A DNA stretch of 64,000 nt. Source: Methylotenera sp. (GTDB lineage: Bacteria > Pseudomonadota > Gammaproteobacteria > Burkholderiales > Methylophilaceae). The position numbers and the translations under genes are program-made. Below, in pieces: positions 1 through 12,329 of the stretch; within the stretch, counting starts at the first letter, position 1, and every line of letters begins with the position of its first letter. Under the pieces are notes generated by a model, which saw nothing but the letters and a program-made list of their open reading frames with translations, had not been told where the DNA came from and did not search any database. The stretch is from contig JADGRO010000034.1 of the NCBI GenBank assembly GCA_017880905.1, positions 1 through 64,000 of the forward strand, in the 5' to 3' direction.

Positions 1-422
1 ATGAAGTGCGTGAAGCCTTATCCAATATAGGAGTGCAAGGCATCCATCATACTGACTGAATTGCCTGATTGGACTACATCGGCGTCAGCAACGGCGGCGG
101 AAATGGCTACTGGAGCAAGAATAACTGGGATGGTGCCACCATCCTTGGCCATACACCCGAGGATCTAGTCGATACCCACGTCGTCTTTACCGTTGATCGC
201 ATATTTTAAATCAATGACTCTTCCCTTGAGGGTGCCTATGGCATCCTTTTTTTGCTGGATTTCAACTCCAGACGATAGGGTAACAATGTTGTATATACCT
301 ATGAATTTTTACAAAAGTTTTATATCTGCGCAGCATTATTTTTCACGATTTTTATATTTTTTTCTTTAGCATTTCACTTGGGTTCAATTGAATCCAATAC
401 TTGTAAGACAGGAGAAAATTAA
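1..422. other. No intact gene; possible decayed coding fragment and leader of the first PII-like cassette
   Basis: No full gene is visible. An open stretch at about 69-209 (+), without a convincing start, has a protein-like composition (Gly/Asn-rich, then an acidic segment, ending in Phe) and may be the 3' end of a broken gene; I cannot name it. Positions 290-420 are AT-rich and look like the promoter and leader of the gene at 423. They contain an imperfect 20-bp palindrome at 378-397 (one mismatch per arm) just before the ribosome binding site AGGAG at 410-414. A regulatory role for the palindrome is a guess. Confidence 0.4.
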
Positions 423-746
423 TTGAGTTGTATTAGTTTGTTACTCATGACCTCGGAGGTCATGGCTGTTCGTAGAGCAGTTTTCGCGGCCGGGGCGAGT
501 CGCGTCGTTGTTTCTTCCTTGCCTAAACATACATGGGCAGCGCATTTTCAGGACTGGAGCTTCGGCAAAGACAATACAAGGTGCGATGCTCCCATCCGAA
601 TTGAAGTGGGAGTCGACGAAGACCATGCGGACGAAGTCGTTTCAGCCTTTCTGACGACAGCACATGTCGGCACGATCGAACGAATTGCAAAACACCCCGC
701 AAAATCGACAAAAGGTATCTTCCAGAGGCTCCTCCATGCAGCCTAA
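423..746 (+). CDS. Divergent PII-like protein, copy 1
   Basis: Small 107-residue protein whose layout resembles the GlnB/GlnK PII fold: an N-terminal strand, the helix with AVRRAVFAAGASRVVV (residues 15-30), a T-loop-like insert with QDWSFGK, then a strand PIRIEV and a second helix ending TTAHVG. The canonical PII B-loop TGKIGDGKIF is absent and the C-terminus is short, so normal ATP/2-oxoglutarate sensing is doubtful. The start is TTG, chosen because the paralogue at 3813 aligns from the same position with ATG and because AGGAG lies about 8 nt upstream. The stop overlaps the next gene. PII family membership is an inference from pattern alone; the 16-residue block identical to copy 2 is directly visible. 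Confidence 0.6.
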   Translation: MSCISLLLMTSEVMAVRRAVFAAGASRVVVSSLPKHTWAAHFQDWSFGKDNTRCDAPIRIEVGVDEDHADEVVSAFLTTAHVGTIERIAKHPAKSTKGIFQRLLHAA

Positions 747-1110
747 AAAAGAACATGGGCATGCTGCTAGAACCTCTGCTGATCCTTGCGTGTTAAGCTA
801 TGATCGAAATGCCGATGTTGAAAAAAGAAATCTCCCTCCCAAGGCAATCGTGTCGCCCAGCATCCACACGGCTGTTCAAGAGGAAATTTTTATCGCCGTC
901 GATCATGCTAACCCGACGCAATCAAGACTATATGCACATATTTGTCCTATGTGTGGCAGAAAGCATGTTGTCAATGCGCTAAGACATCGTTTTGCCTATG
1001 GCAAACAACTCGCCTGCAGTTTTGAATGCGACATTGCAAGACGCAGGGCAATGGGTAGTTTATTTGGAATGCCATGCGCACGAAGTGTTTGCTTCAAGTC
1101 CAGAGAGTGA
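736..1110 (+). CDS. Small Cys-rich (putative zinc-binding) protein, copy 1
   Basis: Predicted 124-residue protein. I chose ATG 736, which overlaps the end of the PII-like gene by 11 nt and has AGAGG about 8 nt upstream; a longer reading from 664 would lie inside the upstream gene. A polar N-terminal half is followed by YAHICPMCGRKH (Cys70, Cys73) and then ACSFECDIARRR (Cys94, Cys98), a pattern that could hold one zinc ion; two further Cys (114, 119) lie near the end. The gene at 4137 shares the motif YSHLCPVCG and the same position after a PII-like gene. Function unknown; translational coupling suggests the two products act together. Confidence 0.6.
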   Translation: MQPKKEHGHAARTSADPCVLSYDRNADVEKRNLPPKAIVSPSIHTAVQEEIFIAVDHANPTQSRLYAHICPMCGRKHVVNALRHRFAYGKQLACSFECDIARRRAMGSLFGMPCARSVCFKSRE

Positions 1111-1115
1111 ACTGA

Positions 1116-1343
1116 ATGAGTGATATTGAGCCCATTCAGGACCATATCACTACCGTCAAGCTCTTGCTCGTTTGGCAAAAGTTAGTAGAAAACTTGAGGT
1201 ATCTCCAGCACAACGATCTGGCCGAATATCTCATACACAAACAAAATCTGGGGATGTTAGAAAAGCTGCTTGAAAGGCTCGAAATTTCGAGCTCTGTCCG
1301 GATGGAACTACTATCCGAGCCAAGCCGAAGAGCTAGCACATGA
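1116..1343 (+). CDS. Small helical hypothetical protein coupled to the CorA gene
   Basis: 75-residue protein, mostly helical by composition, with Leu-rich heptad-like stretches (NLRYLQHNDLAEYLIHKQNL, then EKLLERLEI). No membrane segment, signal peptide or known motif is visible. It starts 5 nt after the preceding Cys-rich gene, and its TGA overlaps the ATG of the CorA gene (ATGA at 1340-1343), so it is probably translated in one message with both. It could be a cytosolic partner of the transporter; that rests only on the overlap. Confidence 0.55.
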   Translation: MSDIEPIQDHITTVKLLLVWQKLVENLRYLQHNDLAEYLIHKQNLGMLEKLLERLEISSSVRMELLSEPSRRAST

Positions 1344-2338
1344 CGATCCGGGTATTTGACCTTTATGAAGGGCGCTTGTGCCAAATTCCCATTTATAGAC
1401 GGGAGGATCTAGCTGAAGCGCACCCGGTCTGGATAGACCTGGTCACACCCGAAGATGAACAACTTGATTGGGTTAGAGAAATTTTTGACGTACATCTGCC
1501 TAATCCAAAGGATCTGACTTACCAAGAGACCAGTGCACGCTTTTATGTGGAAGAGAATGGAGAATTACATTTACATTCCGACTTCCTGCTTGACTGGGAG
1601 GACGAATCACGTAAAGTGGTTGTGGCATTTGTTTTGTACAATGGCATTTTATTCTCGGTGCGGGCTGAGGAACTGCCGGTGTTTCGTTTGCAGCATGTAC
1701 GAGTAAGTGCTCAGGCAGGATATGTATCAGATGCAAAAGACGTGTTACTCAATCTTTTTGCTATTGATGTGGAATACTCGGCAAATGAGCTTGAAGACAT
1801 ATACGCCCGGCTAGAACAGGTTGGAAAGCAGGTATTCAGGTCTAATAAGACTAATGAGGAAGCAGCAAAGATACTTACTGCCATCTCCTTAGAAGAAGAC
1901 CTTAACGGATGTATACGTCGCAATATTCTGGATACCCGCAATGCTTTATCTTTTTTGACGCGTCGAAAGATTCTGTCAATCGCACAGCATGAGGATGTCC
2001 GTGAAATTCTTCACGATATTGAATCTCTGGACGGACACACAACCTTCTTGTTCAACAAGATCAACTTTCAGATGGATGCCACTGTTGGTTTCCTTAACGT
2101 CAACCAGAACGAGAACCTAAAACGGCTGACGATCATCAGTGTCGTTTTTATGCCAATCAATGTGTTGGCAGGCATTGGTGGGATGTCAGAATTTACGATG
2201 ATGACGCAGGGCATCCCTTGGCCCATCGCTTACAGTGCTTTAGTTATGGTCATGGTCGCGATTGGTATCATGACTTTTATGGTCTTGCGGACATTTGAAA
2301 ACCGCAAGATAAGAAATCATCGTGCGCGATCAGACTAA
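1340..2338 (+). CDS. CorA-family divalent cation transporter with variant GMN motif
   Basis: 332-residue protein with the CorA plan: a long acidic/helical cytoplasmic domain (about 1-265) and two C-terminal membrane helices (about 265-283 and 293-315). The family carries GMN at the mouth of the pore helix as the selectivity signature; here the equivalent is Gly281-Met282-Ser283 in GIGGMSEFTMM, so Asn is replaced by Ser. The basic tail (RKIRNHRARSD) after TM2 is typical. CorA proteins move Mg2+, Co2+ or Ni2+, and relatives such as ZntB move Zn2+; the substrate here cannot be told. It is likely cotranscribed with the small genes upstream. It sits inside the accessory region, so it may be an extra copy. 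Confidence 0.85.
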   Translation: MTIRVFDLYEGRLCQIPIYRREDLAEAHPVWIDLVTPEDEQLDWVREIFDVHLPNPKDLTYQETSARFYVEENGELHLHSDFLLDWEDESRKVVVAFVLYNGILFSVRAEELPVFRLQHVRVSAQAGYVSDAKDVLLNLFAIDVEYSANELEDIYARLEQVGKQVFRSNKTNEEAAKILTAISLEEDLNGCIRRNILDTRNALSFLTRRKILSIAQHEDVREILHDIESLDGHTTFLFNKINFQMDATVGFLNVNQNENLKRLTIISVVFMPINVLAGIGGMSEFTMMTQGIPWPIAYSALVMVMVAIGIMTFMVLRTFENRKIRNHRARSD

Positions 2339-2524
2339 ACTTAAAATTCGCCCGATAGCCGCGAATTAAATAACCTGATTTCATATTGCATTGTGTCGGT
2401 ATGTACTTAAATTAAGACCCATTAGGGTCATTCTAAGAATGCAATTCAACAGCCAACACCAGACATTGAACTAAAACTGCTAAACTTAACACCACTTTAG
2501 ATTTACCTACTAGAAGAGGAACAC

Positions 2525-3334
2525 ATGAAACGCTATTTAATATTATTGATAATTGCTTTAACATGCATGAGCCTGTTATCTACAGTGGCGGAAGCTAAGC
2601 GTTTTGGGGGAGGCAGCAGTTTTGGTAAGAGCCGTTCGATGCCAACAAGACAGGCACAAAGTACACCTGCTTCTCCGCCCACGCCTGTAGCATCTGGCGG
2701 CAACAAATGGATGGGCCCCTTGGCTGGTTTGGCATTAGGTGCCGGCTTGGCCACCATGTTTGCCAGTGGTGGCATGGGCGGCGGCATGAGCTCAATTTTG
2801 ATGATGATACTTGCTGCTGCTGCAATTATATTTTTGATTTCAAAATTCAAAAAATCCCAACAACAAAATATTCAGTATGCAGGGGGTAACACACCATATA
2901 ACCCACCACAGCAATTATCTGAACAGAATTATAGTAGGGCTAGTGCGACCAATATCCCACAAGATTTTCCAGTAGAAAGTTTTCTACGCAATGCAAAAAT
3001 GTCATTCATTCGTCTACAAGCCGCAAATGATCGTAAAGACATCAACGATGTGCGTGAATATACTACGCCTGAAGTATTTGCTGAAATTTCAATGCAAATG
3101 CAAGAGCGTGGTAATGCGGTGCAAACTACCGAAGTTATCGCAATTAATGCTGAATTACTTGAAGTTGCCAATGAAAGTGACTTTTCAATCGCCAGTGTGC
3201 GTTTTACTGGACAGTTGAGCGAAAACAACGGTAAACCAGAAAATATAGATGAAATTTGGCATATACAAAAGAATCTGCAAGAAAATAATTCAGCGTGGCT
3301 ATTAGCAGGCATTCAGCAAACGAATGTTCAATAA
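2525..3334 (+). CDS. Tim44-like domain membrane protein
   Basis: 269-residue protein. An N-terminal signal-type segment ends AEA at residue 24, followed by a Gly/Ser/Pro-rich linker (KRFGGGSSFGKSRSMPTRQ), two hydrophobic stretches around residues 63-80 and 87-108, then a soluble alpha/beta domain (about 145-269) of the Tim44/MRP-L45 type with the WLLAGIQQ-like terminal strand. Bacterial Tim44-domain proteins of this architecture are common in betaproteobacteria and of uncertain function. SD AGAGGAA lies just before ATG. It is separated from corA by 186 nt and probably has its own promoter. Confidence 0.75.
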   Translation: MKRYLILLIIALTCMSLLSTVAEAKRFGGGSSFGKSRSMPTRQAQSTPASPPTPVASGGNKWMGPLAGLALGAGLATMFASGGMGGGMSSILMMILAAAAIIFLISKFKKSQQQNIQYAGGNTPYNPPQQLSEQNYSRASATNIPQDFPVESFLRNAKMSFIRLQAANDRKDINDVREYTTPEVFAEISMQMQERGNAVQTTEVIAINAELLEVANESDFSIASVRFTGQLSENNGKPENIDEIWHIQKNLQENNSAWLLAGIQQTNVQ

Positions 3335-3812
3335 GGATGATGCTTCTTAGTTCAGGGACTTGATGCATTGGCTATTGGTATTGTGTTTGATCTTCTGAGC
3401 GGCAGCCATATTTTGTAATAAACATAGACGGTTACGTATAGACTCCCCTTCGGACTGCAAGTGCTCTGACCTATGATATTTGGTTCGACTGCTCACGCAT
3501 TTCAGCCTTTAATTACTATATCTATGCTTATGATTGGGCCTTGATGGGCTGTTCGCGTATTGGCTATCTTTCGCTTCGACGGGCTTTGACGCCTCAAATA
3601 TTCTCCGGTCCGTTAGCGCCGATTAGACCAGATCACCCTTAACGAAACTCTATTTATCTGCAGAAACGGCGTATTAGGGTGTTTCTCATGTACTCATTTT
3701 TATATAATTTTTATATCCACGGCTTAACATTTTTCACTTTTTTTAGAAACTTAGCTATAACATTTAATAAGGGATTTCTTTGGTCCCTGACACAAATGCA
3801 GGAAAACATTAA
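3335..3812. other. 478-nt stretch without a gene
   Basis: No credible ORF or RNA gene is visible on either strand. The left part (about 3420-3660) is more GC-rich and non-repetitive and could be decayed coding DNA, but I recognise nothing in it. The right part (3690-3810) is AT-rich and resembles the leader of the first PII-like cassette: a run of ATTTTTATAT, a later CATTTTTCAC, and a leader ending in an AGGA ribosome binding site before AAACATTAAATG. A short inverted repeat AGGGA...TCCCT lies at 3770-3788 (5-bp stem, 9-nt loop). Confidence 0.4.
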
Positions 3813-4133
3813 ATGAATCATATTAGCATGTTGCTTAAATCCTCGGATATCAAGGCCGTCCGCAGAGCAGTTTTCGCGGCAGGGGCTAGTCGTGTCGTTG
3901 TCACCACGTTATCTCGGCAGGCCTGGATTGTCTCCTTGCAGGACTGGTACTTTGGCAAATCAGTTTCATGGGTTGAAGCTCCCGTAAAAATCAATGTGGA
4001 GGTCGATAAGTGCCATGCGGATAACGTCGTCTCAGCTTTTCTGACAACGGCAAGTTGTGGCAAGATTGAAAAAATCACACAATACACTAAGAAGACAAAA
4101 GGTTCCCCCTTGCATATCCTGAAGGCTGCATAA
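3813..4133 (+). CDS. Divergent PII-like protein, copy 2
   Basis: 106-residue paralogue of the protein at 423: residues 15-30 (AVRRAVFAAGASRVVV) are identical in both, and the T-loop-like QDWYFGK, the strand APVKINV and the helix end FLTTASCGKI correspond. As in copy 1, the PII B-loop is missing and the chain stops early, so this is a PII-fold candidate rather than a classical GlnB. ATG start with AGGA 8-9 nt upstream. It is followed after 3 nt by a CxxC protein gene, repeating the layout at 423-1110. It precedes kdpD, with one small gene between. Confidence 0.6.
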   Translation: MNHISMLLKSSDIKAVRRAVFAAGASRVVVTTLSRQAWIVSLQDWYFGKSVSWVEAPVKINVEVDKCHADNVVSAFLTTASCGKIEKITQYTKKTKGSPLHILKAA

Positions 4134-4136
4134 AGA

Positions 4137-4400
4137 ATGTACAGTTGGAGCCCTTTCTTGCTTGGCATGCTCTTTCTGGCAGTTTTCCTGCCGATTCTGC
4201 TATGCTATGCATTGGTCGAATTACAAATGGCACACAATGCAATTATCCAACCGGAAACGACGGCATCTTCTGGTGCCAACAGGGTTGGTCATGAATGGAT
4301 GAACGACACAGCTGACTATCCAGAATCTGAACCAACAAGACAATACTCTCACCTTTGTCCGGTTTGTGGTGAAATGCATTTTGTTTATGAAACAAGATAA
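4137..4400 (+). CDS. Small membrane-anchored CxxC protein, copy 2 (shortened)
   Basis: 87-residue protein. Residues 5-30 form one hydrophobic membrane segment or signal anchor (SPFLLGMLFLAVFLPILLCY), followed by a polar linker and YSHLCPVCGEMHFV (Cys74, Cys77). The motif matches YAHICPMCGRKHVV of the gene at 736, but here the chain ends 10 residues later, so the second Cys pair is lost and an N-terminal membrane anchor is present instead. It starts 3 nt after the PII-like stop. Function unknown; the pair may place a PII-like protein at the membrane, which is inference. Confidence 0.6.
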   Translation: MYSWSPFLLGMLFLAVFLPILLCYALVELQMAHNAIIQPETTASSGANRVGHEWMNDTADYPESEPTRQYSHLCPVCGEMHFVYETR

Positions 4401-4515
4401 CGAATAGTTAATGGTAAACAGTACTTTGCAGTTTAGAATGTGAGATAAAAAGACGTAAGGCATGACGGAATCCCGCGCAGGCCTACTCCTCCCAACCATT
4501 TAGGAATCCTGAATA

Positions 4516-7239
4516 ATGGCTGATATCAAGGATCAACGCCCCAACCCAGACGAGCTTCTGGAAAAAGTGCAGCGAGAAAATGAAAAAGCGCAACGCGGTA
4601 AACTAAAACTATTTTTCGGAGCCTCAGCGGGGGTGGGTAAGACTTACGGCATGCTAGCTGCTGCAAGGCAGTTGCGTGCACAAGGTGTGGACGTAGTGGT
4701 TGGTGTAGTAGAGACTCATGGCCGCAAGGAAACTCAGGCCATGACCGAGGGGTTGGAAATTCTCCCCCTTAAAAAAATTTCTTACCGCGGCCGCATCCTC
4801 AAAGAGTTTGACTTAGATGGCGCACTGGCACGCAAGCCAGAACTTATTATGGTTGACGAGTTAGCACATTCCAATGTTGCTGGTTCCCGCCATCCCAAGC
4901 GCTGGCAAGATGTGGAGGAACTGCTGGCTGCCGGCATTGATGTGTGCTCCACTGTTAATGTTCAGCATTTGGAAACTCTTAACGATGTAGTAAGCGGCAT
5001 TACAGGCATCAACGTTTGGGAAACCATTCCAGACCGTATCTTCGAGAGTGCAGACGAGGTGGTGCTGGTCGACCTTCCTCCCGATGAATTGCTGCAGCGC
5101 CTCAAAGAAGGCAAAGTCTACTTACCGCAACAGGCCGAACGTGCCATCCAGAATTTCTTTCGTAAGGGTAATCTGATCGCCTTGAGGGAACTTGCACTGC
5201 GCCGTACTGCCGACCGTGTGGACGTGGAAATGCAGCAATACCGACGCGAAAAGGCAGTAACTTCCGTGTGGAAGGCCAGGGAATCAATCCTTGTCTGCAT
5301 CGGTTCCGGTGTAGGTGGGGACAGGATCGTGCGCAGTGCAGCTCGTCTGGCAGGCCTTCTGGCCGTGCCTTGGCACGTAATTTATATCGAAACGCCAGAA
5401 CTGCAAGGATTGCCTGATACAAAGAGAGATAAAATCCTCAAGACCCTGAAAATGGCTCAGGACATGGGCGCCGAAACAGCAAGTCTATCTGGGAATGACG
5501 CTTGCGAAACTGCGGTCGACTATGCCCGGCAACATAATCTATCAATCGTAATGGCCGGCAGAGATCATCCTCGCCCCTGGTCACCATTGCGGCGCTCTTT
5601 TGCAGACAAAATAGGCGTTCTGGCCCCAGAGCTTGATGTCATTCAGGTATCAAGAGAAGAAGGCGATGCCCGGGAGAGTTTTGCCATTTCTCCATTGCAA
5701 CAGCAGATTGATCGTATGGAGAAAGGTTGGCACGGTTATGCAATGGCGACGCTTGCTTGTATAGTTGCCACCTTAATCGCAGCGCCATTACATACGGTGT
5801 TCGAGCTTTCCAATATTGTGATGCTATTTCTGCTGACGGTAGTTTTTGTAGCAATTCGTTACGGGCGCGGGCCAGCAATGCTGGCGTCGTTTCTCGGTGT
5901 TGCCGCATTCGATTTTTTCTATGTGCCACCAAGATTTAGCTTCGCTATTGGCGATATGCAGTATCTGCTGACCTTCATGATCATGCTGGCGGTAGGATTA
6001 ATTACCGGTCAGCTTACTGCCGGCCTCAAGCACCAAGCACGTATTGCGACCAGTCGTGAAGCGCGTGTCAGGGCGCTTTATGAAATGTCACGTGACTTAT
6101 CTGGCGCACTGATTCCGGAGCAGATTGCTGAAATATGTGGGCGTTTCATTGAGTCACAATTTGGTGGCAAGGCATCTATTATTCTGTCGAATCTCGAAGA
6201 CAAGTTGAAGCCTCCAATAGCCGCTACTGCGAAGCCGCCAATCATTGACCATGGTATAGCACAATGGGCATTTGATCACGAGGAAGCCGCGGGCAATGGT
6301 ACCGACACTCTGCCAGGTAGTTCGGTGCTGTATTTGCCACTCAAGGCGCCGATGCGAGTGCGCGGGGTATTTGCTTTTGAGCCTGTAAATCCTGGCCAGC
6401 TAATGACGCCGGAACAAAGAAGACTGCTGGAGACTTTTGCCAGATTAATATCAATTGCACTTGAGCGTATCCACTACGTGGACATTTCACAATCTTTTGC
6501 TGTAACGATGGAGTCAGAGCGGTTACGTAATTCGCTTCTTTCCGCTATTTCACATGATTTGAGAACTCCGCTTAGTGTTCTTGTCGGGCTGGCTGACTCA
6601 ATGACCTTAACTAAGCCGCCCCTTACTGGGCAACAAATGGAAATAGCAAGTACCATGCGAACGGAAGCCATGCGTATGTCTGCGCTGGTGAACAACTTGC
6701 TTGATATGGCACGTCTTCAAGCTGGAGAGGTGAAACTTAACCGTCAGTGGTGCCTTTTGGAAGAAGTTGTGGAGAGTTCCCTTCGAGCAGTAAGTACAAG
6801 TCTCTCGCATTACAAAGTGAGCGTGCGGCTGGAAGAGAATTTACCTCTGCTCGAAATTGATGCTGTGCTTATGGAGCGTGTTTTTTGTAACCTGTTGGAG
6901 AATGCAACTAAATATACTCCGGAGAACAGTAAAATTGAAATCGGCGCATCATCTGCTGACCAGGAAGTTATTGTATGGGTCGAAGATAATGGCCCTGGAT
7001 TACCCAAAGGTAAAGAGGAAGAAATTTTTAAAAAGTTCGAACGCGGTCAGAAGGAGAATGCTACTCCCGGAGTAGGTTTGGGCTTGGCTATTTGTCGCGC
7101 CATTGTCGAAGCCCATGGTGGTAGTATCCATGCTGAGAATAGAAGTACAGGTGGCGCTAAGTTTGTGTTTACTCTACCTAAAGGCAACCCACCAGCCATT
7201 GAACCAGAGTTTGACAGCTCTGAAGGCGAGTGCGTATGA
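4516..7239 (+). CDS. kdpD: Sensor histidine kinase KdpD (osmosensitive K+ sensor)
   Basis: 907 residues, close to the 894 of E. coli KdpD. Order: KdpD N-terminal ATP-binding domain with Walker A GASAGVGKT (35-43) and a Walker-B-like segment MVDELAHSN; a universal-stress-protein-like domain (about 250-375); four membrane helices of the DUF4118 type (about 405-500); a GAF-like domain (about 530-655); HisKA with the phospho-accepting His680 in SAISHDLRTPLS; and HATPase with N box ENATKYTPEN and G boxes DNGPGLP and GVGLGLAI. It phosphorylates KdpE when K+ is limiting. No kdpFABC genes are visible within the window, so its target operon lies elsewhere or differs. It overlaps kdpE by 4 nt. Confidence 0.93.
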   Translation: MADIKDQRPNPDELLEKVQRENEKAQRGKLKLFFGASAGVGKTYGMLAAARQLRAQGVDVVVGVVETHGRKETQAMTEGLEILPLKKISYRGRILKEFDLDGALARKPELIMVDELAHSNVAGSRHPKRWQDVEELLAAGIDVCSTVNVQHLETLNDVVSGITGINVWETIPDRIFESADEVVLVDLPPDELLQRLKEGKVYLPQQAERAIQNFFRKGNLIALRELALRRTADRVDVEMQQYRREKAVTSVWKARESILVCIGSGVGGDRIVRSAARLAGLLAVPWHVIYIETPELQGLPDTKRDKILKTLKMAQDMGAETASLSGNDACETAVDYARQHNLSIVMAGRDHPRPWSPLRRSFADKIGVLAPELDVIQVSREEGDARESFAISPLQQQIDRMEKGWHGYAMATLACIVATLIAAPLHTVFELSNIVMLFLLTVVFVAIRYGRGPAMLASFLGVAAFDFFYVPPRFSFAIGDMQYLLTFMIMLAVGLITGQLTAGLKHQARIATSREARVRALYEMSRDLSGALIPEQIAEICGRFIESQFGGKASIILSNLEDKLKPPIAATAKPPIIDHGIAQWAFDHEEAAGNGTDTLPGSSVLYLPLKAPMRVRGVFAFEPVNPGQLMTPEQRRLLETFARLISIALERIHYVDISQSFAVTMESERLRNSLLSAISHDLRTPLSVLVGLADSMTLTKPPLTGQQMEIASTMRTEAMRMSALVNNLLDMARLQAGEVKLNRQWCLLEEVVESSLRAVSTSLSHYKVSVRLEENLPLLEIDAVLMERVFCNLLENATKYTPENSKIEIGASSADQEVIVWVEDNGPGLPKGKEEEIFKKFERGQKENATPGVGLGLAICRAIVEAHGGSIHAENRSTGGAKFVFTLPKGNPPAIEPEFDSSEGECV

Positions 7240-7934
7240 CCATAGACTCCACCAAGCCAGTCATTATCGTAGTAGAGGACGAAGCGCAAATACGTCGTTT
7301 TGTGCGTTTGGCACTCGAAGTAGACAACTGCATCGTTCATGAAGCGGAAACCTTGCAACGTGGCTTGATCGAGGCAGGCACACGTCATCCCGATCTTGTC
7401 ATTCTCGACCTTGGATTGCCAGACGGGGATGGTGTTGATTTTATTCGTGACCTTCGCGTCTGGTCACAAATACCAATTATCGTTTTATCGGCTAGAACTG
7501 AAGAAACAGATAAGGTCAGGGCCCTAGATGCTGGGGCAGACGATTATCTTACCAAACCTTTTGGTGCTTCGGAACTAGTCGCTCGAGTTAGGGCACATTT
7601 GCGTCGCAGGTCGCTAAATAGCAATGAAGATAATTCCGTTATCGAGTTTGGTAACATACACATTGATTTTCGGAAACGCATCGTAGAGCGAGCAGGTGAG
7701 GCACTTCATTTAACCCCTATTGAATATCGGTTATTGACTTATCTCGTTTCCAATCCCGATTGCGTTCTAACACATCGCCAAATACTCAAAGCGGTATGGG
7801 GGCCATCCCATATTGAGGACGCTCATTATGTCCGAATATATATGGGGCATTTAAGAAAAAAACTCGAAGAGAATACATCGCAGCCCAGGCATATCACTAC
7901 AGAGTCTAGTGTCGGGTATAGATTTATGCCTTGA
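7236..7934 (+). CDS. kdpE: Response regulator KdpE (OmpR family)
   Basis: 232 residues. Receiver domain (about 8-120) with acidic pair VEDE, phospho-acceptor Asp58 in VILDLGLPDGDG and the conserved Lys in LTKPFG; winged-helix DNA-binding domain of the OmpR type (about 135-232) with LTPIEYRLL and the recognition helix region YVRIYMGHLRKKLE. I chose ATG 7236, which overlaps the kdpD stop as ATGA; a GTG two codons upstream (7230) is possible. Partner of the kinase just upstream; its K+ pump operon is not in view. Confidence 0.93.
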   Translation: MTIDSTKPVIIVVEDEAQIRRFVRLALEVDNCIVHEAETLQRGLIEAGTRHPDLVILDLGLPDGDGVDFIRDLRVWSQIPIIVLSARTEETDKVRALDAGADDYLTKPFGASELVARVRAHLRRRSLNSNEDNSVIEFGNIHIDFRKRIVERAGEALHLTPIEYRLLTYLVSNPDCVLTHRQILKAVWGPSHIEDAHYVRIYMGHLRKKLEENTSQPRHITTESSVGYRFMP

Positions 7935-8363: not shown

Positions 8364-9626
8364 TCAGTTCTGTAAACGCTGACTAATTTGCTTTAATCGT
8401 TGGTCTACAAATATTGATAGCTCTGGACTAAGTGTTGTGCTGGATTGTACGCGGGTAAAAGCTTCTTGGGATTGTTCTAGTTTGCCAATTGCCTGCAACG
8501 AAATGCCAAGGCCGACCAACATGCTAGTGGTAGCATTAGGTGTGCCAGTAGGCACGGTAGAGTTGAGGGAAAGTGCTATTGTGTAGTGACTGATTGCCTC
8601 TTCGTGGCGGTTAGCGCGTTGCAACAGCGTAGCTAAAAAATTTTGGTAATCGGCATTGTCTTTTGCGTATGACAGGCCTTGTTCTAAAGTGGTTAAGGCG
8701 CCAGTATGATCGCCAGCCTCTACTTGTAGGCGAGCGAGCGCCATACGAAAATCATTTTGCTCAGGCGCAATAGCCAAGCCAGTGGCTAGTGTTGCCCTGG
8801 CTTCATCATTTCTCTTATTATCTAACAACAGTCCTGCAAGCGTTTGCCTTGCTTCATGATTGCTTGGATTGGCCTCAAGCGCTAATGTCAAATTGGCCAG
8901 CGCCTCAGAAACTCTACCTTGTTGAAGATATGAAAGTGCTTGGCGATAGTAATTTTCTGATTTTTGATCTGGCCTGATTTGTTTACCAATTGCTATATTG
9001 TCTGTGTTTGATTTGCCAGATGGTTTTTCGGCGTGCTCTAGTGCAGGCGATTTTTCAGACGTAGCTGGGTTTATTAATTCTGCCGGTTCTACTGGTTTTA
9101 ATTGCTTTACTGGTGTGGCTTCTGGCATCAAATTCGCCATAATTCCTACTTTTTGTATTTTTTTAGCTTTCTGTGTATTTTCGGTCAGTGGTTGAGTATC
9201 AGATGGGCTGTAGCTGAGCTTGGTTTCAAATAGTGGTGGCGATTCAACTGTAGTATCAGTAGTGACTATAGTTCCAGTATTGTCGGTAGTGGCCGTAGAA
9301 GGTGCTATTGTTGGCTTAACAGTTATTGCAGATGTCGTATGAGTAATCGGCTGCGGTTTTATATTCAAAGTGTCAGTAATATTACTGTTGTGAGATAGTG
9401 CTAAAGTACTTTGCATCCATAAATAGGCACCGCTAGTTAACAAGAGCACGATGCCCCCCACCTTGATGAGCGGTAATCTATGGTTTATCGCTGGTAATTG
9501 GATTGATTGAGGTGTGGTTGCATCTGGTTCAGTCGCGATAATCATTTCTGCGTCAGCAACATTGACATCATTTGCTTTGGCACCACGCTGTTCTAAATCC
9601 TTTAACATTTGATTAATTAAACTCAT
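8364..9626 (-). CDS. mshN: MSHA biogenesis TPR protein MshN
   Basis: 420 residues. The N-terminal signature MSLINQMLKDLEQR is typical of MshN. One membrane helix (about 53-70) is followed by a Thr/Pro/Ser-rich linker (about 75-210), then TPR repeats (about 220-400), seen as repeated YRQALSYLQQGRVSEAL-type helices. It is thought to sit in the inner membrane with its TPRs in the periplasm and to help build the pilus machine. It is the last gene of the MSHA cluster, 33 nt after mshM. Confidence 0.88.
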   Translation of the reverse strand: MSLINQMLKDLEQRGAKANDVNVADAEMIIATEPDATTPQSIQLPAINHRLPLIKVGGIVLLLTSGAYLWMQSTLALSHNSNITDTLNIKPQPITHTTSAITVKPTIAPSTATTDNTGTIVTTDTTVESPPLFETKLSYSPSDTQPLTENTQKAKKIQKVGIMANLMPEATPVKQLKPVEPAELINPATSEKSPALEHAEKPSGKSNTDNIAIGKQIRPDQKSENYYRQALSYLQQGRVSEALANLTLALEANPSNHEARQTLAGLLLDNKRNDEARATLATGLAIAPEQNDFRMALARLQVEAGDHTGALTTLEQGLSYAKDNADYQNFLATLLQRANRHEEAISHYTIALSLNSTVPTGTPNATTSMLVGLGISLQAIGKLEQSQEAFTRVQSSTTLSPELSIFVDQRLKQISQRLQN

Positions 9627-9659
9627 TTTAATATTTGTCTTTTATTTGGGTTAAACCAA

Positions 9660-10562
9660 TTATTTAGGGTAAGCGAACAAAGCACTACCGATTAGACTGA
9701 GAAATACGCCTAAAGAAAGACCATGAAAGTGCATTTTTCTCCAAATGGATTCAATGGATTTAGTGTCTGAAACTGCTGCAAATACCTCACTTAGTCCCAC
9801 TAGATGTTTGCCCTTGCCGTAAGTTGCCAATAACGCTTTATGGGCTAGTATGTTCACTAGGCGAGGAATGCCTTTGGATTTAAAATATATGAGGTATAAC
9901 GCCGCACTACTAAACACACGGCTACCCTGATAGCCAGCGATGACCAGACGATGATTTAAGTAATATTGCATTTCGTCGCGGCTTAGACGATCAAGCTGAT
10001 ATTCGAAGGTAATGCGCTGTTTTAACTGCCTAATCGAGGCATGGTTAAGTTTGTCTTCAAGCTCAGGCTGCCCAAAAATCACGACTTGCAGCAATTTGCG
10101 TTTTTCAGTTTCAAGGTTACTTAACAGACGTAGCGCTTCGAGCGTTTCGATTGGCATCGCTTGTACTTCATCTAGACACACCACCACTTTGATATGGTTT
10201 CGAGCAAAGTTTAACAAGCCATGCGTAAGTGCATTTAAAAGAGCGTGTTGAGTGATAGCTGCTGGTAAGGTAATTCCCAATTCTCTAGCCAGTACTATTA
10301 ACAGGGATTGTGGTTCTAAAGAGGGATTAGGCACATAGGCTACTTTAAAGCGTGAATCTAAGCTGGACATTAACTTACGGCAAAGCAATGTTTTACCTGT
10401 GCCAACTTCACCCGTTATTTTGATAAAGCCCTCACCAGAACAAATGGCAAAAAGCAAGGTATTAAGTCCTTCTTGATAGCTATGCGAGGCAAAATAGAAA
10501 CTGGTATCAGGCGTGATACTGAAAGGTAGTTCTTTTAAGCCAAAATGCTTGAGATACATCAT
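9660..10562 (-). CDS. mshM: MSHA biogenesis ATPase MshM (ExeA-like)
   Basis: 300 residues of the ExeA/GspA AAA+ family: N-terminal MYLKHFGLKELPFSITPD, Walker A GEVGTGKT (51-58), Walker B VVCLDEVQAM, sensor region, and a single C-terminal hydrophobic segment (about 281-296). In ExeA-type systems such ATPases help place or assemble the secretin. Two adjacent ATGs are possible (10562 or 10559); the family usually starts at the second. It abuts the stop of mshL directly, so it is translated in the same message. Confidence 0.9.
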   Translation of the reverse strand: MMYLKHFGLKELPFSITPDTSFYFASHSYQEGLNTLLFAICSGEGFIKITGEVGTGKTLLCRKLMSSLDSRFKVAYVPNPSLEPQSLLIVLARELGITLPAAITQHALLNALTHGLLNFARNHIKVVVCLDEVQAMPIETLEALRLLSNLETEKRKLLQVVIFGQPELEDKLNHASIRQLKQRITFEYQLDRLSRDEMQYYLNHRLVIAGYQGSRVFSSAALYLIYFKSKGIPRLVNILAHKALLATYGKGKHLVGLSEVFAAVSDTKSIESIWRKMHFHGLSLGVFLSLIGSALFAYPK

Positions 10563-12329
10563 TTATCTGTTCTCCCCGGTGTTTCCATTAGCGGCATCAT
10601 TAGCGGTTCTGGCCATGGATTCTGGTCTTTGCATGTTTTCAATACGTTGCTGGCTAGATAAAACGTCATTGCTCCAGCTATCTTGGCTTTGTATTACAGT
10701 CGCTTTAAGCAAGATAACGAGTTCTGTTTTGCTTGTGTTTGAACCATGTTGACGGAAGGCAGCGCCAACGCCTTTTACATCACCCAAGCCAGGCACTTTA
10801 GATTTGCTACTAGTTGTGCTTTCGGTCATTAGTCCACCAATAGCGATAACCCGACCATCATGTGTGCGTACAATGCTATCGGTTTCACTCACATTGCTTG
10901 AGGCAAGTGGTAAGTTAATTTGGCCTGAAGTGCCACCCAAACTAACTTGCTTGTTCACTGTAGAAACCTGGCTGATAGAAGGGTGCATGTGCAAGATTAT
11001 ATTGTCGTCTTTGTCAATTTGTGGCGTCACATCCAATGCAATACCTGAAAAGAAAGGTTGTAGCGTCACTTCAGGAACTGTCGTTGTAGCACCTGTAGAA
11101 GCCGTTGTGCTGGATGAAACGCCTGTGACAAAAAACTCATCCGTACCCACTTTTAAAACTGCTTTTTGATTGTTAATAGTGGCAATGCGTGGACTGGATA
11201 GCACTTGAACGTCGCCTTGCGTTTCTAGGAATGATAATAAAGCAGCAAAATTAGCGCCTTGTAACGCCACGGCAAATAATGGCCCGCCAATCGCGGTGGT
11301 GGCTACATTTGCCAATATAGAGCCAGCTGAAGCACTTAAATCACCACTACTTAATGAGCCATTACCACTTTTACTAAGCTGGGTGTTAGCGTTGACACTG
11401 CCGACGATGCCTGTGTTAGAACCTTTACGGCCAAATACAGACCAATTTACGCCACTTTGTGATTGGTCGTTAAGTTGTACATTAAGAATTTTTGCTTCCA
11501 AGATAACTTGGCGCTCAATGTTTACTTGCATTAAGCGTAAAAACGCTTCTACATTTCGCACCTCATTAGGCATGGCGCGCACCATAATCACACCTGATTG
11601 CAAGTTAACAATAACGCGCCTACCATTTTCATTACCAACAATGCCATTGAGTGAGTCAGTTAGATCTTTCCAAAAGTCATTATTAGATGTCGTTTCAATG
11701 CTCGTACTAATTAGTGGTTCACGGTTTCCTGAGTTGCCAGAGCTGGTACTGGTAGTTCCGCCTGAGTTTTGTTGCCCGCTTTGATTGCTACCTCCGCTGA
11801 CTGATCCCGAAGTGACACGTATATCAGACGCGCCCTTACGTTGCCCCAGAATATAACTTACCTGAAACACGCGCGTTTGCATCGCCTGCGGCTCAATAAA
11901 AATACGTGTACCTTCTACCCTGTATTCATAGCCATATAGATCACGTATGGAATCTAATGCTTCAAACACGGTAACATCTTTTAAATTGACTGAAATCGTG
12001 CCAGTCACATCTTGGCGAACCAACATGCTGTAGCGAGTGCCGCTGACTATCCCCATGAGTACCTGGTTTGCGGGTGCATTATTGATGACTAAATCAAAGC
12101 GCTGTTCAAGTTGCTTTGCGCTTGTTTTTGGCATAGTGATTTTTAAAGGCGGTAACAGTGCATCGTTTACGGCAGCTGGGATAGGCGTGGTGTCCTTCAC
12201 TTCTACGGCATGTTTTAACTCGTCCTTTATTTTATTGAGAGTAGAGTTATTTTGTGGTTGCGTCGTGGCGCAAGCGCTCAATAGTACTAAAACCATTAAT
12301 GATAAATAAGTGTGTAATTTTTGCATCAT
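10563..12329 (-). CDS. mshL: MSHA pilus secretin MshL
   Basis: 588 residues. Lipoprotein signal with lipobox LSAC (Cys20), a secretin/TonB short N-terminal domain (about 95-150), a Ser/Gly/Asn-rich loop (about 180-205), an N1-type domain (about 230-285) and the secretin core (about 350-545), which includes the VPGLGDVKGVGAAFRQ segment. It forms the outer-membrane gate for the MSHA pilus. Its ATG overlaps the mshK stop by one base; mshM follows immediately. Confidence 0.93.
   Translation of the reverse strand: MMQKLHTYLSLMVLVLLSACATTQPQNNSTLNKIKDELKHAVEVKDTTPIPAAVNDALLPPLKITMPKTSAKQLEQRFDLVINNAPANQVLMGIVSGTRYSMLVRQDVTGTISVNLKDVTVFEALDSIRDLYGYEYRVEGTRIFIEPQAMQTRVFQVSYILGQRKGASDIRVTSGSVSGGSNQSGQQNSGGTTSTSSGNSGNREPLISTSIETTSNNDFWKDLTDSLNGIVGNENGRRVIVNLQSGVIMVRAMPNEVRNVEAFLRLMQVNIERQVILEAKILNVQLNDQSQSGVNWSVFGRKGSNTGIVGSVNANTQLSKSGNGSLSSGDLSASAGSILANVATTAIGGPLFAVALQGANFAALLSFLETQGDVQVLSSPRIATINNQKAVLKVGTDEFFVTGVSSSTTASTGATTTVPEVTLQPFFSGIALDVTPQIDKDDNIILHMHPSISQVSTVNKQVSLGGTSGQINLPLASSNVSETDSIVRTHDGRVIAIGGLMTESTTSSKSKVPGLGDVKGVGAAFRQHGSNTSKTELVILLKATVIQSQDSWSNDVLSSQQRIENMQRPESMARTANDAANGNTGENR

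Follow-up and report, generated by a model that had tools for sequence, protein, structure and literature searches.

PII proteins are switches of nitrogen and carbon metabolism. Two PII-type proteins, GlnK and SbtB, are described as being encoded beside the transporters on which they dock, AmtB and SbtA, respectively (PMC8352866). For the Kdp potassium (K+) system, published work reports binding of EIIA-Ntr to the sensor kinase KdpD (PMC9239096, PMC13104625), the presence of ptsN within kdp operons in ∼10% of alphaproteobacterial genomes (PMC13104625), the ability of KdpD to phosphorylate the pump (PMC11018627), and direct binding of cyclic di-AMP (c-di-AMP) to the KdpD USP domain (PMC4686210). 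The DNA described here is the first 64,000 nucleotides (forward strand) of contig JADGRO010000034.1 of a Methylotenera sp. (assembly GCA_017880905.1), referred to below as the window; it opens contig C8 of a draft genome with a size of 1.93 Mb and 92% completeness (G000). An earlier note on this DNA had proposed that two cassettes, each coding for a short PII-like protein and a small CxxC protein, flank a CorA-like and a Tim44-domain gene ahead of kdpDE, and the open reading frames (ORFs) show that both cassettes are present; Pfam confirms CorA, Tim44, KdpD, and KdpE, whereas none of the small proteins scores above a curated cutoff. Genome comparisons place the PII-like subfamily and the CxxC protein in kdp loci, and the locus suggests that K+ uptake is subject to a further, undescribed level of control.

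PII-like genes and their CxxC partners in kdp loci

The PII-like subfamily is found in eight genomes, with two copies in G000, two in G925, and one in each of G153, G270, G369, G199, G871, and G911, and in all eight the gene lies within a kdp locus. Three of these genomes (G871, G925, and G911) come from a whole-genome search made after the kdp link had been seen and thus serve as an independent test; all three have the gene in a kdp locus. The homologues are therefore not scattered, an outcome that would have refuted the earlier note, but linked to a transporter locus, and because they hold the same neighborhood in other families of the order, the cassette arrangement is more than a chance grouping. 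The G199 gene is cut at a contig end, and the G369, G199, and G871 contigs end within or near the locus. In G270, the kdpFABC and PII contigs have 126 identical bases in common, located at the end of one and at bases 127 to 252 of the other and extending into the promoter of the PII-like gene; over its first 126 bases, the latter contig differs. When 399 genomes of the order are searched with a CxxC protein profile, 10 of them match at E values of <1e-9, and in all 10 the nearest copy is 0.1 to 1.2 kb upstream of kdpD and on the kdpD strand; six of the 10 (G456, G390, G472, G332, G175, and G228) are outside the set used to build the profile. A match in G250 (E = 0.005) is away from kdpD and was dropped.

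The PII profile searches covered 399 genomes of the order, 369 of the class, and 4, 9, and 80 genomes of the families around matches, and these samples overlap. The first profile, built from three rows, matches 126 of the 399 genomes of the order, five of which are counted as the subfamily; the remaining matches align to approximately model positions 1 to 86 or 1 to 91 with E values of 1e-7 to 1e-3. The 27 loci inspected among these (25 from the order and two from the class, a set to which G000:C40 does not belong) are all canonical GlnB/GlnK and were rejected, and a profile match in G882 is likewise canonical PII and was set aside. A three-row alignment run against 84,980 species returns one locus, in Gallionellaceae UBA2239 (L033, the same as G153), and the second PII-like protein of the window alone has no match in the 84,980 species. 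A single-sequence search of 199 relatives finds G153 alone besides the window's genome, and a plasmid search for PII-like relatives returns nothing.

Organization of the window

The two cassettes and the genes around them are arranged as follows.

305 to 358, plus strand: twin KdpE-type boxes ahead of cassette 1 (22 bp + 10 bp + 22 bp), twin score 38.9
423 to 746, plus strand: PII-like protein 1 (PII1), 107 amino acids (aa), TTG start, profile homology to PII
736 to 1110, plus strand: CxxC protein 1 (CxxC1), C-x2-C-x20-C-x3-C, treble-clef/zinc-ribbon-like, overlapping the PII1 stop
1116 to 1343, plus strand: 75-aa ORF between CxxC1 and the CorA-like gene, no Pfam match
1340 to 2338, plus strand: CorA-like membrane protein, Pfam CorA, E = 1.6e-39
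2525 to 3334, plus strand: Tim44-domain protein, 269 aa, Pfam Tim44, E = 8.8e-21
3696 to 3749, plus strand: twin KdpE-type boxes upstream of cassette 2, twin score 32.4
3813 to 4133, plus strand: PII-like protein 2 (PII2), 106 aa, supported by profile, structural model, and Foldseek
4137 to 4465, plus strand: CxxC protein 2 (CxxC2), hydrophobic helix and CPVC half-site, ORF ending at 4400 with a remnant at 4427 to 4465
4516 to 7239, plus strand: kdpD sensor kinase, Pfam KdpD (PF02702), E = 2.5e-98
7230 to 7934, plus strand: kdpE response regulator, Pfam Response_reg and Trans_reg_C

The TTG start of PII1 is preceded by a Shine-Dalgarno-like GGAG. The CorA-like gene overlaps the 75-aa ORF by 4 bases, and PII1, CxxC1, the 75-aa ORF, and the CorA-like gene form one closely packed unit behind a KdpE-type box; the CorA-like gene therefore probably shares the regulation of cassette 1. 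In G000, kdpFABC is on a different contig, C24, which we infer to adjoin C8; the two have no common 15-mer, and an overlap join was rejected. The last bases of C24 encode the beginning of a Gcw_chp-type protein (E = 1e-8 by blastp but just 0.1 with Pfam), and comparison of window positions 72 to 206 with Gcw_chp-type proteins gives no significant match.

KdpE-type boxes upstream of the PII-like genes

The boxes were defined with a motif learned by expectation maximization (EM). In a first EM run on 45 regions, a set that still contained some of the cassette loci, the top motif was kdpF coding sequence and the box ranked fourth; in a second run, with the 110 bases next to kdpA cut, cassette loci removed, and random starts, the box ranked first. 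The final 22-bp motif, from 42 regions upstream of kdpA in loci without a PII cassette, is an 11-bp direct repeat (ATtTTTACac.ATCTTTATACc) that scores at least 15 in 40 of the 42 training regions; its period agrees with the Escherichia coli KdpE site, published as TTTATA and TTTACA, 5 bp apart (PMC3264566). The commonest companion of the motif is a second copy at +32 bp, which scores at least 8 in 21 of the 40 regions and below −20 in 8.

A scan for such twins on both strands of the window gives the best score (38.9) at position 305 and the second best (32.4) at position 3696, just before the two cassettes, followed by 13.9 at 3698, a shifted reading of the 3696 site, and then 12.2; no dinucleotide shuffle of either intergenic region (0 of 2,000) reaches the observed twin score. 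Each of the 10 PII-like genes is preceded by a twin box (scores, 20.0 to 38.9), which in nine cases ends 41 to 64 bp before the start codon; the G369 box, with a score of 20, is 433 bp from its gene. In G925, where the locus is on one contig, there are five twins in 33 kb, before kdpF, PII-A, PII-B, the CxxC gene (∼340 bp away), and ptsN (∼260 bp away), and no twin site scoring at least 12 beyond those five. The 70 fetched kdp loci (some fetched twice) contain 54 twin matches of at least 15. Of these, 36 are upstream of kdpA at a distance of no more than 480 bp; among the 18 others, eight precede CxxC-bearing units (in five distinct genomes) and two are a single site in L075 before a Gcw_chp gene. 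For each PII-like gene, these sequences strongly indicate transcription from a KdpE-type promoter of its own, and the protein is therefore predicted to be made when KdpD/KdpE sense K+ shortage.

A half-site pattern, written after the boxes had been seen, has no mismatches with the 305 box and one with the 3696 box. The sites in G000 with at most one mismatch are those of PII1, PII2, and kdpF, and three others have three mismatches; a reversed half-site control gives 0 to 2 matches per genome. The pattern missed the G153 kdpF and PII boxes, the G911 PII box, and the G925 CxxC and ptsN boxes, and its matches also include an unlinked site in G925 and a G153 site that lies outside the cassette.

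A divergent PII subfamily

Profile alignments show the PII-like protein to be a divergent member of the PII superfamily in which the canonical loops for modification and nucleotide binding are lost. Alignment of the PII-like profile to 10 canonical PII proteins with hhalign has a probability of 97.2% and an E value of 4.2e-11 over residues 1 to 86, the model position at which the homology ends, and in reverse the cassette profile recovers canonical GlnB/GlnK in 27 of 27 matches inspected. Pfam P-II matches four of nine PII-like members at E values up to 1 (best, 1.9e-4). PII1 alone matches it (PF00543) at E = 0.13, with 13 bits versus a curated cutoff of 25, and PII2 has no Pfam match and 14 bits versus a cutoff of 202 for NCBIfam PRK10858; the curated PF00543 and NCBIfam P-II cutoffs are thus not reached, and PDB sequence searches with PII1 and with PII2 return nothing up to an E value of 10. 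An AlphaFold2 model of PII2, built from three sequences (predicted local distance difference test [pLDDT] score, 72.4; predicted template modeling [pTM] score, 0.65), has the element order beta-alpha-beta-beta-alpha-beta. The top 50 Foldseek rows with this model are all titled PII, GlnK, GlnZ, or TT1020, the last of which is a Thermus PII, and the best match, GlnK 1gnk (E = 8.7e-4), is the only one below 0.001. Fold and profile are both PII, so the proposed PII-like identity holds against the earlier note's other refuting condition, an unrelated fold.

The T-loop motif with the uridylylation tyrosine, YRGAEY, is invariant in the 10 canonical PII proteins and present in none of the nine aligned PII-like members. 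The B-loop TGKIGDGK and C-loop RIRTGE of the ATP site, invariant or nearly so in the canonical proteins, are also missing; residues 87 to 90 and 101 to 106 are not kept. With the tyrosine and both of these loops lost, the PII-like protein is best regarded as PII by descent and not as a canonical uridylylated ATP/2-oxoglutarate sensor. Residues M1, I4, V16, R17, A19, A23, G24, and V62 are invariant across the nine aligned members, and all nine full-length ORFs are open. PII1 and PII2 share 56% identity, and with nonsynonymous (dN) and synonymous (dS) divergences of 0.35 and 1.13, respectively (dN/dS, ∼0.31), the two copies look constrained.

The CxxC partner protein

Ten of the 12 CxxC copies seen have the C-x2-C-x20-C-x3-C spacing, which is presumably of the TRASH/treble-clef type; the exceptions are CxxC2 of the window and a degenerate copy in G175 with three stops. 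The ribbon of G456 has weak Pfam matches to Zn_ribbon_IS1595 (E = 0.039) and Arc_trans_TRASH (E = 0.067), and the best match of the G925 protein is Ribosomal_S27 (E = 0.02), all under cutoff; the G310 protein has no match among curated families. Judged by eye, the CxxC protein of G310 and of G275 is a single protein with an N-terminal hydrophobic helix, and such a helix is present in CxxC2 and absent from CxxC1; the ribbon stands alone in G472, G332, G228, G456, and G390. CxxC2 is broken, with a stop at 4398 to 4400 that takes off the second cysteine pair, and a remnant, CSLECEIKRRKA, is readable in another frame at 4427 to 4465. The structure prediction of CxxC1 (pLDDT, 51.3) is too poor to use.

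The G153 locus (L003, 1074 to 1460 and 1258 to 1452, minus strand) has the helix and the ribbon in different frames, reflecting a frameshift, an assembly error, or a split gene. A protein of ∼100 aa, starting near CIGI, is encoded ahead of the stand-alone zinc ribbon in L125, L126, L127, L128, and L129; the G456 copy has a very weak likeness to the IS110 transposase N-terminal domain (E = 0.056) and is perhaps a domesticated piece.

CorA-like and other genes of the locus

The signature of CorA is GMN. The CorA-like protein of the window has GMS in its place and scores below the TIGR00383 cutoff, and a GMS relative lies between kdpC and kdpD in G198. This CorA-like subtype, with GIGGMSEFTMMT versus the GMN filter, is seen in kdp loci of the window and G198 (window, 1340 to 2338; L134, 6904 to 7140 region) and may not be a Mg2+ channel. 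Four of the eight PII-bearing genomes (G000, G153, G270, and G911) have a CorA gene, belonging to one of three types, in the fetched stretch. G925 has only a short CorA remnant beside kdpD while its two PII copies persist, and CorA is also present in five kdp loci without PII (G198, G143, G148, G228, and G472). The linkage of CorA to the cassette is real but sporadic. In the earlier suggestion that the small proteins may control CorA or the K+ response, the tie to the K+ response is well supported, with KdpE-type boxes at every PII-like gene, and the tie to CorA is weakly supported.

In many kdp loci (L075, L045 [190 to 957], L131, L132, L142, and L144), kdpC is followed by an outer-membrane-type protein of the Gcw_chp family (PF09694). 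The L075 gene, on the reverse strand near position 87, has in front of it a twin KdpE-type box with the very high score of 42.7 and is a likely KdpE target. The Tim44 relative in the G270 kdp locus is split over two frames. In G270 and G911, a second family of small ORFs, ending in MEAIIRALPSGEIGRI, lies behind its own twin KdpE-type box and is followed by dapA (L035, 1658 to 2041; L144, 12933 to 13334); it matches the PII profile only at E = 2.7 and has no Pfam match. Beyond kdpDE, at 8364 to 12329 on the minus strand, the window contains an MSHA-type pilus/secretion-like cluster with a TPR protein, an ATPase, and a secretin, all named by eye.

In G456, G228, G472, and G332, an EIIA-Ntr gene, one of two copies in each genome, lies after kdpC and before the CxxC gene. 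The kdpC-kdpD interval looks like a hot spot of accessory regulators. The cassette proteins themselves have no match to the EIIA-Ntr domain (PF00359). G000, at 92% completeness, has no PF00359 match, and all 14 other genomes tested, a set that left out G871, G925, and G911, have at least one. The idea that PII-bearing genomes are without EIIA-Ntr was rejected, since four of the five tested have one and only G000 has no match.

Proposed role and alternatives

Gene order and promoter boxes indicate that the cassette is a conserved module, probably under KdpE control. We favor, with slightly better than even confidence, its being an accessory Kdp regulatory module, in which a KdpE-induced noncanonical PII protein would feed back on KdpD or KdpFABC. 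When K+ is short, phosphorylated KdpE would turn on the PII-like genes together with kdpFABC, and the PII-like protein, probably a trimer, would dock after translation on KdpD or on the KdpFABC pump as a feedback regulator; the CxxC protein, with its helix in several genomes, may be a membrane-side partner or a metal- or redox-sensitive tether of the PII-like protein. In other genomes, an EIIA-Ntr gene occupies this region of the locus, which favors KdpD as the first candidate target, and given that KdpD can phosphorylate the pump, a protein bound to KdpD could affect both the kinase and the pump. A bolder version, which is possible but doubtful, is that this KdpDE-induced subfamily has exchanged nucleotide/2-oxoglutarate sensing for another signal and gates KdpFABC or KdpD with a membrane-anchored treble-clef zinc protein, as a K+ counterpart of GlnK-AmtB. 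Were it true, regulators of the PII-like, EIIA-Ntr, and zinc-finger kinds would be exchanged for, or added to, one another at kdp loci. A PII subfamily acting on the K+ pump would in any case provide Kdp with a posttranslational brake or accelerator in Gram-negative bacteria, which are not known to use c-di-AMP for such control.

Several observations weigh against the proposed module. The subfamily is rare, with the gene in five of the 399 genomes of the order (G000, G153, G369, G270, and G199) versus KdpD in 125 of them, so Kdp works without the PII-like protein, which would be an accessory and not a core Kdp part. No PII-like gene is present in the kdpD-upstream regions of 60 of the 125 kdpD genomes (two of the 60 fragments being <300 bases and three others <3.3 kb), and the notion that kdp loci commonly carry such genes was rejected on this count. 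The partners also separate: CxxC occurs without PII in G310, G275, G390, G456, G472, G332, G228, and G175, and in G270 and G871 the PII-like gene is followed by a helix-only protein with no ribbon. The genes after the cassette on the 8.8-kb contig of G871 are not kdpDE, and the EIIA-Ntr gene beside kdpE in G925 coexists with two PII copies, so the two regulators are not exclusive. The T-loop region, usually the target-binding part, is variable and uneven in length among the PII-like members, the confidence of the PII2 model is only moderate, and VIA-align places PII and BMC (microcompartment) shell proteins level with that model (Z scores of 8.8 and 8.9); because of this tie, weight is given to the sequence profiles instead.

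The PII-like protein could instead be a partner of KdpD/KdpE on the transcription side only, a replacement for EIIA-Ntr with no role at the pump. Such a replacement would fit the four genomes in which EIIA-Ntr sits in this region of the locus, its reported binding to KdpD (PMC9239096, PMC13104625), and the absence of a PF00359 match from the window's own genome. However, four of the five PII-bearing genomes tested keep EIIA-Ntr elsewhere, and G925 has it beside kdpE in addition to two PII copies, making this unlikely. A slightly less likely target is another membrane protein of the locus, the CorA-like channel or the Gcw_chp protein, or general ion balance, in place of KdpD/KdpFABC. The packing of the CorA-like gene into the cassette 1 unit behind a KdpE-type box, the CorA genes in the kdp loci of G153, G270, and G911, and the GMS gene between kdpC and kdpD in G198 agree with such a target, but the CorA genes vary in type (GMS, GMN, and large) and in orientation (divergent in G153), occur in five kdp loci that have no PII, and are reduced to a short match beside kdpD in G925, which keeps both PII copies.

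A reading of the PII-like genes as passengers that decay in kdp loci and have no function of their own is improbable. They are rare and patchy, and decay is evident nearby, in the broken CxxC2, the G153 helix and ribbon in different frames, the degenerate G175 copy, and the split Tim44 gene of G270, yet the nine full-length PII-like ORFs are all open, the dN/dS ratio between the window copies is ∼0.31, and promoter boxes are kept upstream of all 10 PII-like genes.

Comparison with known systems

The accessory Kdp module proposed here touches on four described systems. Canonical GlnB/GlnK proteins (PF00543) share with the PII-like protein the fold and the profile over residues 1 to 86, and they differ in having the YRGAEY T-loop, the TGKIGDGK B-loop, and the RIRTGE C-loop, all missing from the PII-like members, whose neighborhood is kdp. 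The curated family libraries have missed both protein groups of the cassette, which are given names here. The PII-like proteins PstA/DarA and the c-di-AMP link of KdpD similarly connect PII-like proteins with K+ homeostasis, although in the papers listed this system is mainly Gram-positive; the titles and abstract openings among the c-di-AMP/KdpD matches listed do not name a PII gene in a kdp locus. More broadly, among the literature matches listed, which are mostly abstract openings and include few subscription papers, no PII-like or zinc-ribbon gene of a kdp locus is named. EIIA-Ntr (PtsN) acting on KdpD, with ptsN2 in kdp operons, is likewise a soluble nitrogen/carbon-type regulator encoded in the kdp locus (PMC13104625), but it belongs to a protein family unrelated to the PII-like protein, and the PII-like genes have KdpE-type boxes of their own.

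The closest parallels are GlnK-AmtB and SbtB-SbtA, in which, as here, a small PII-fold protein is encoded beside a high-affinity transporter and is apparently induced by the same shortage signal. As expected of a transporter-linked PII, the PII-like gene is beside kdp in all eight genomes, with twin KdpE-type boxes before all 10 copies. The present system differs in that the neighbor is a P-type K+ pump with a sensor kinase, on which docking would be predicted, in the loss of the T-loop tyrosine and nucleotide loops, and in the additional CxxC partner. Linked to a K+ pump through both its gene order and its promoters, such a PII subfamily would extend the logic of PII switching from nitrogen and carbon to the main cytoplasmic cation.

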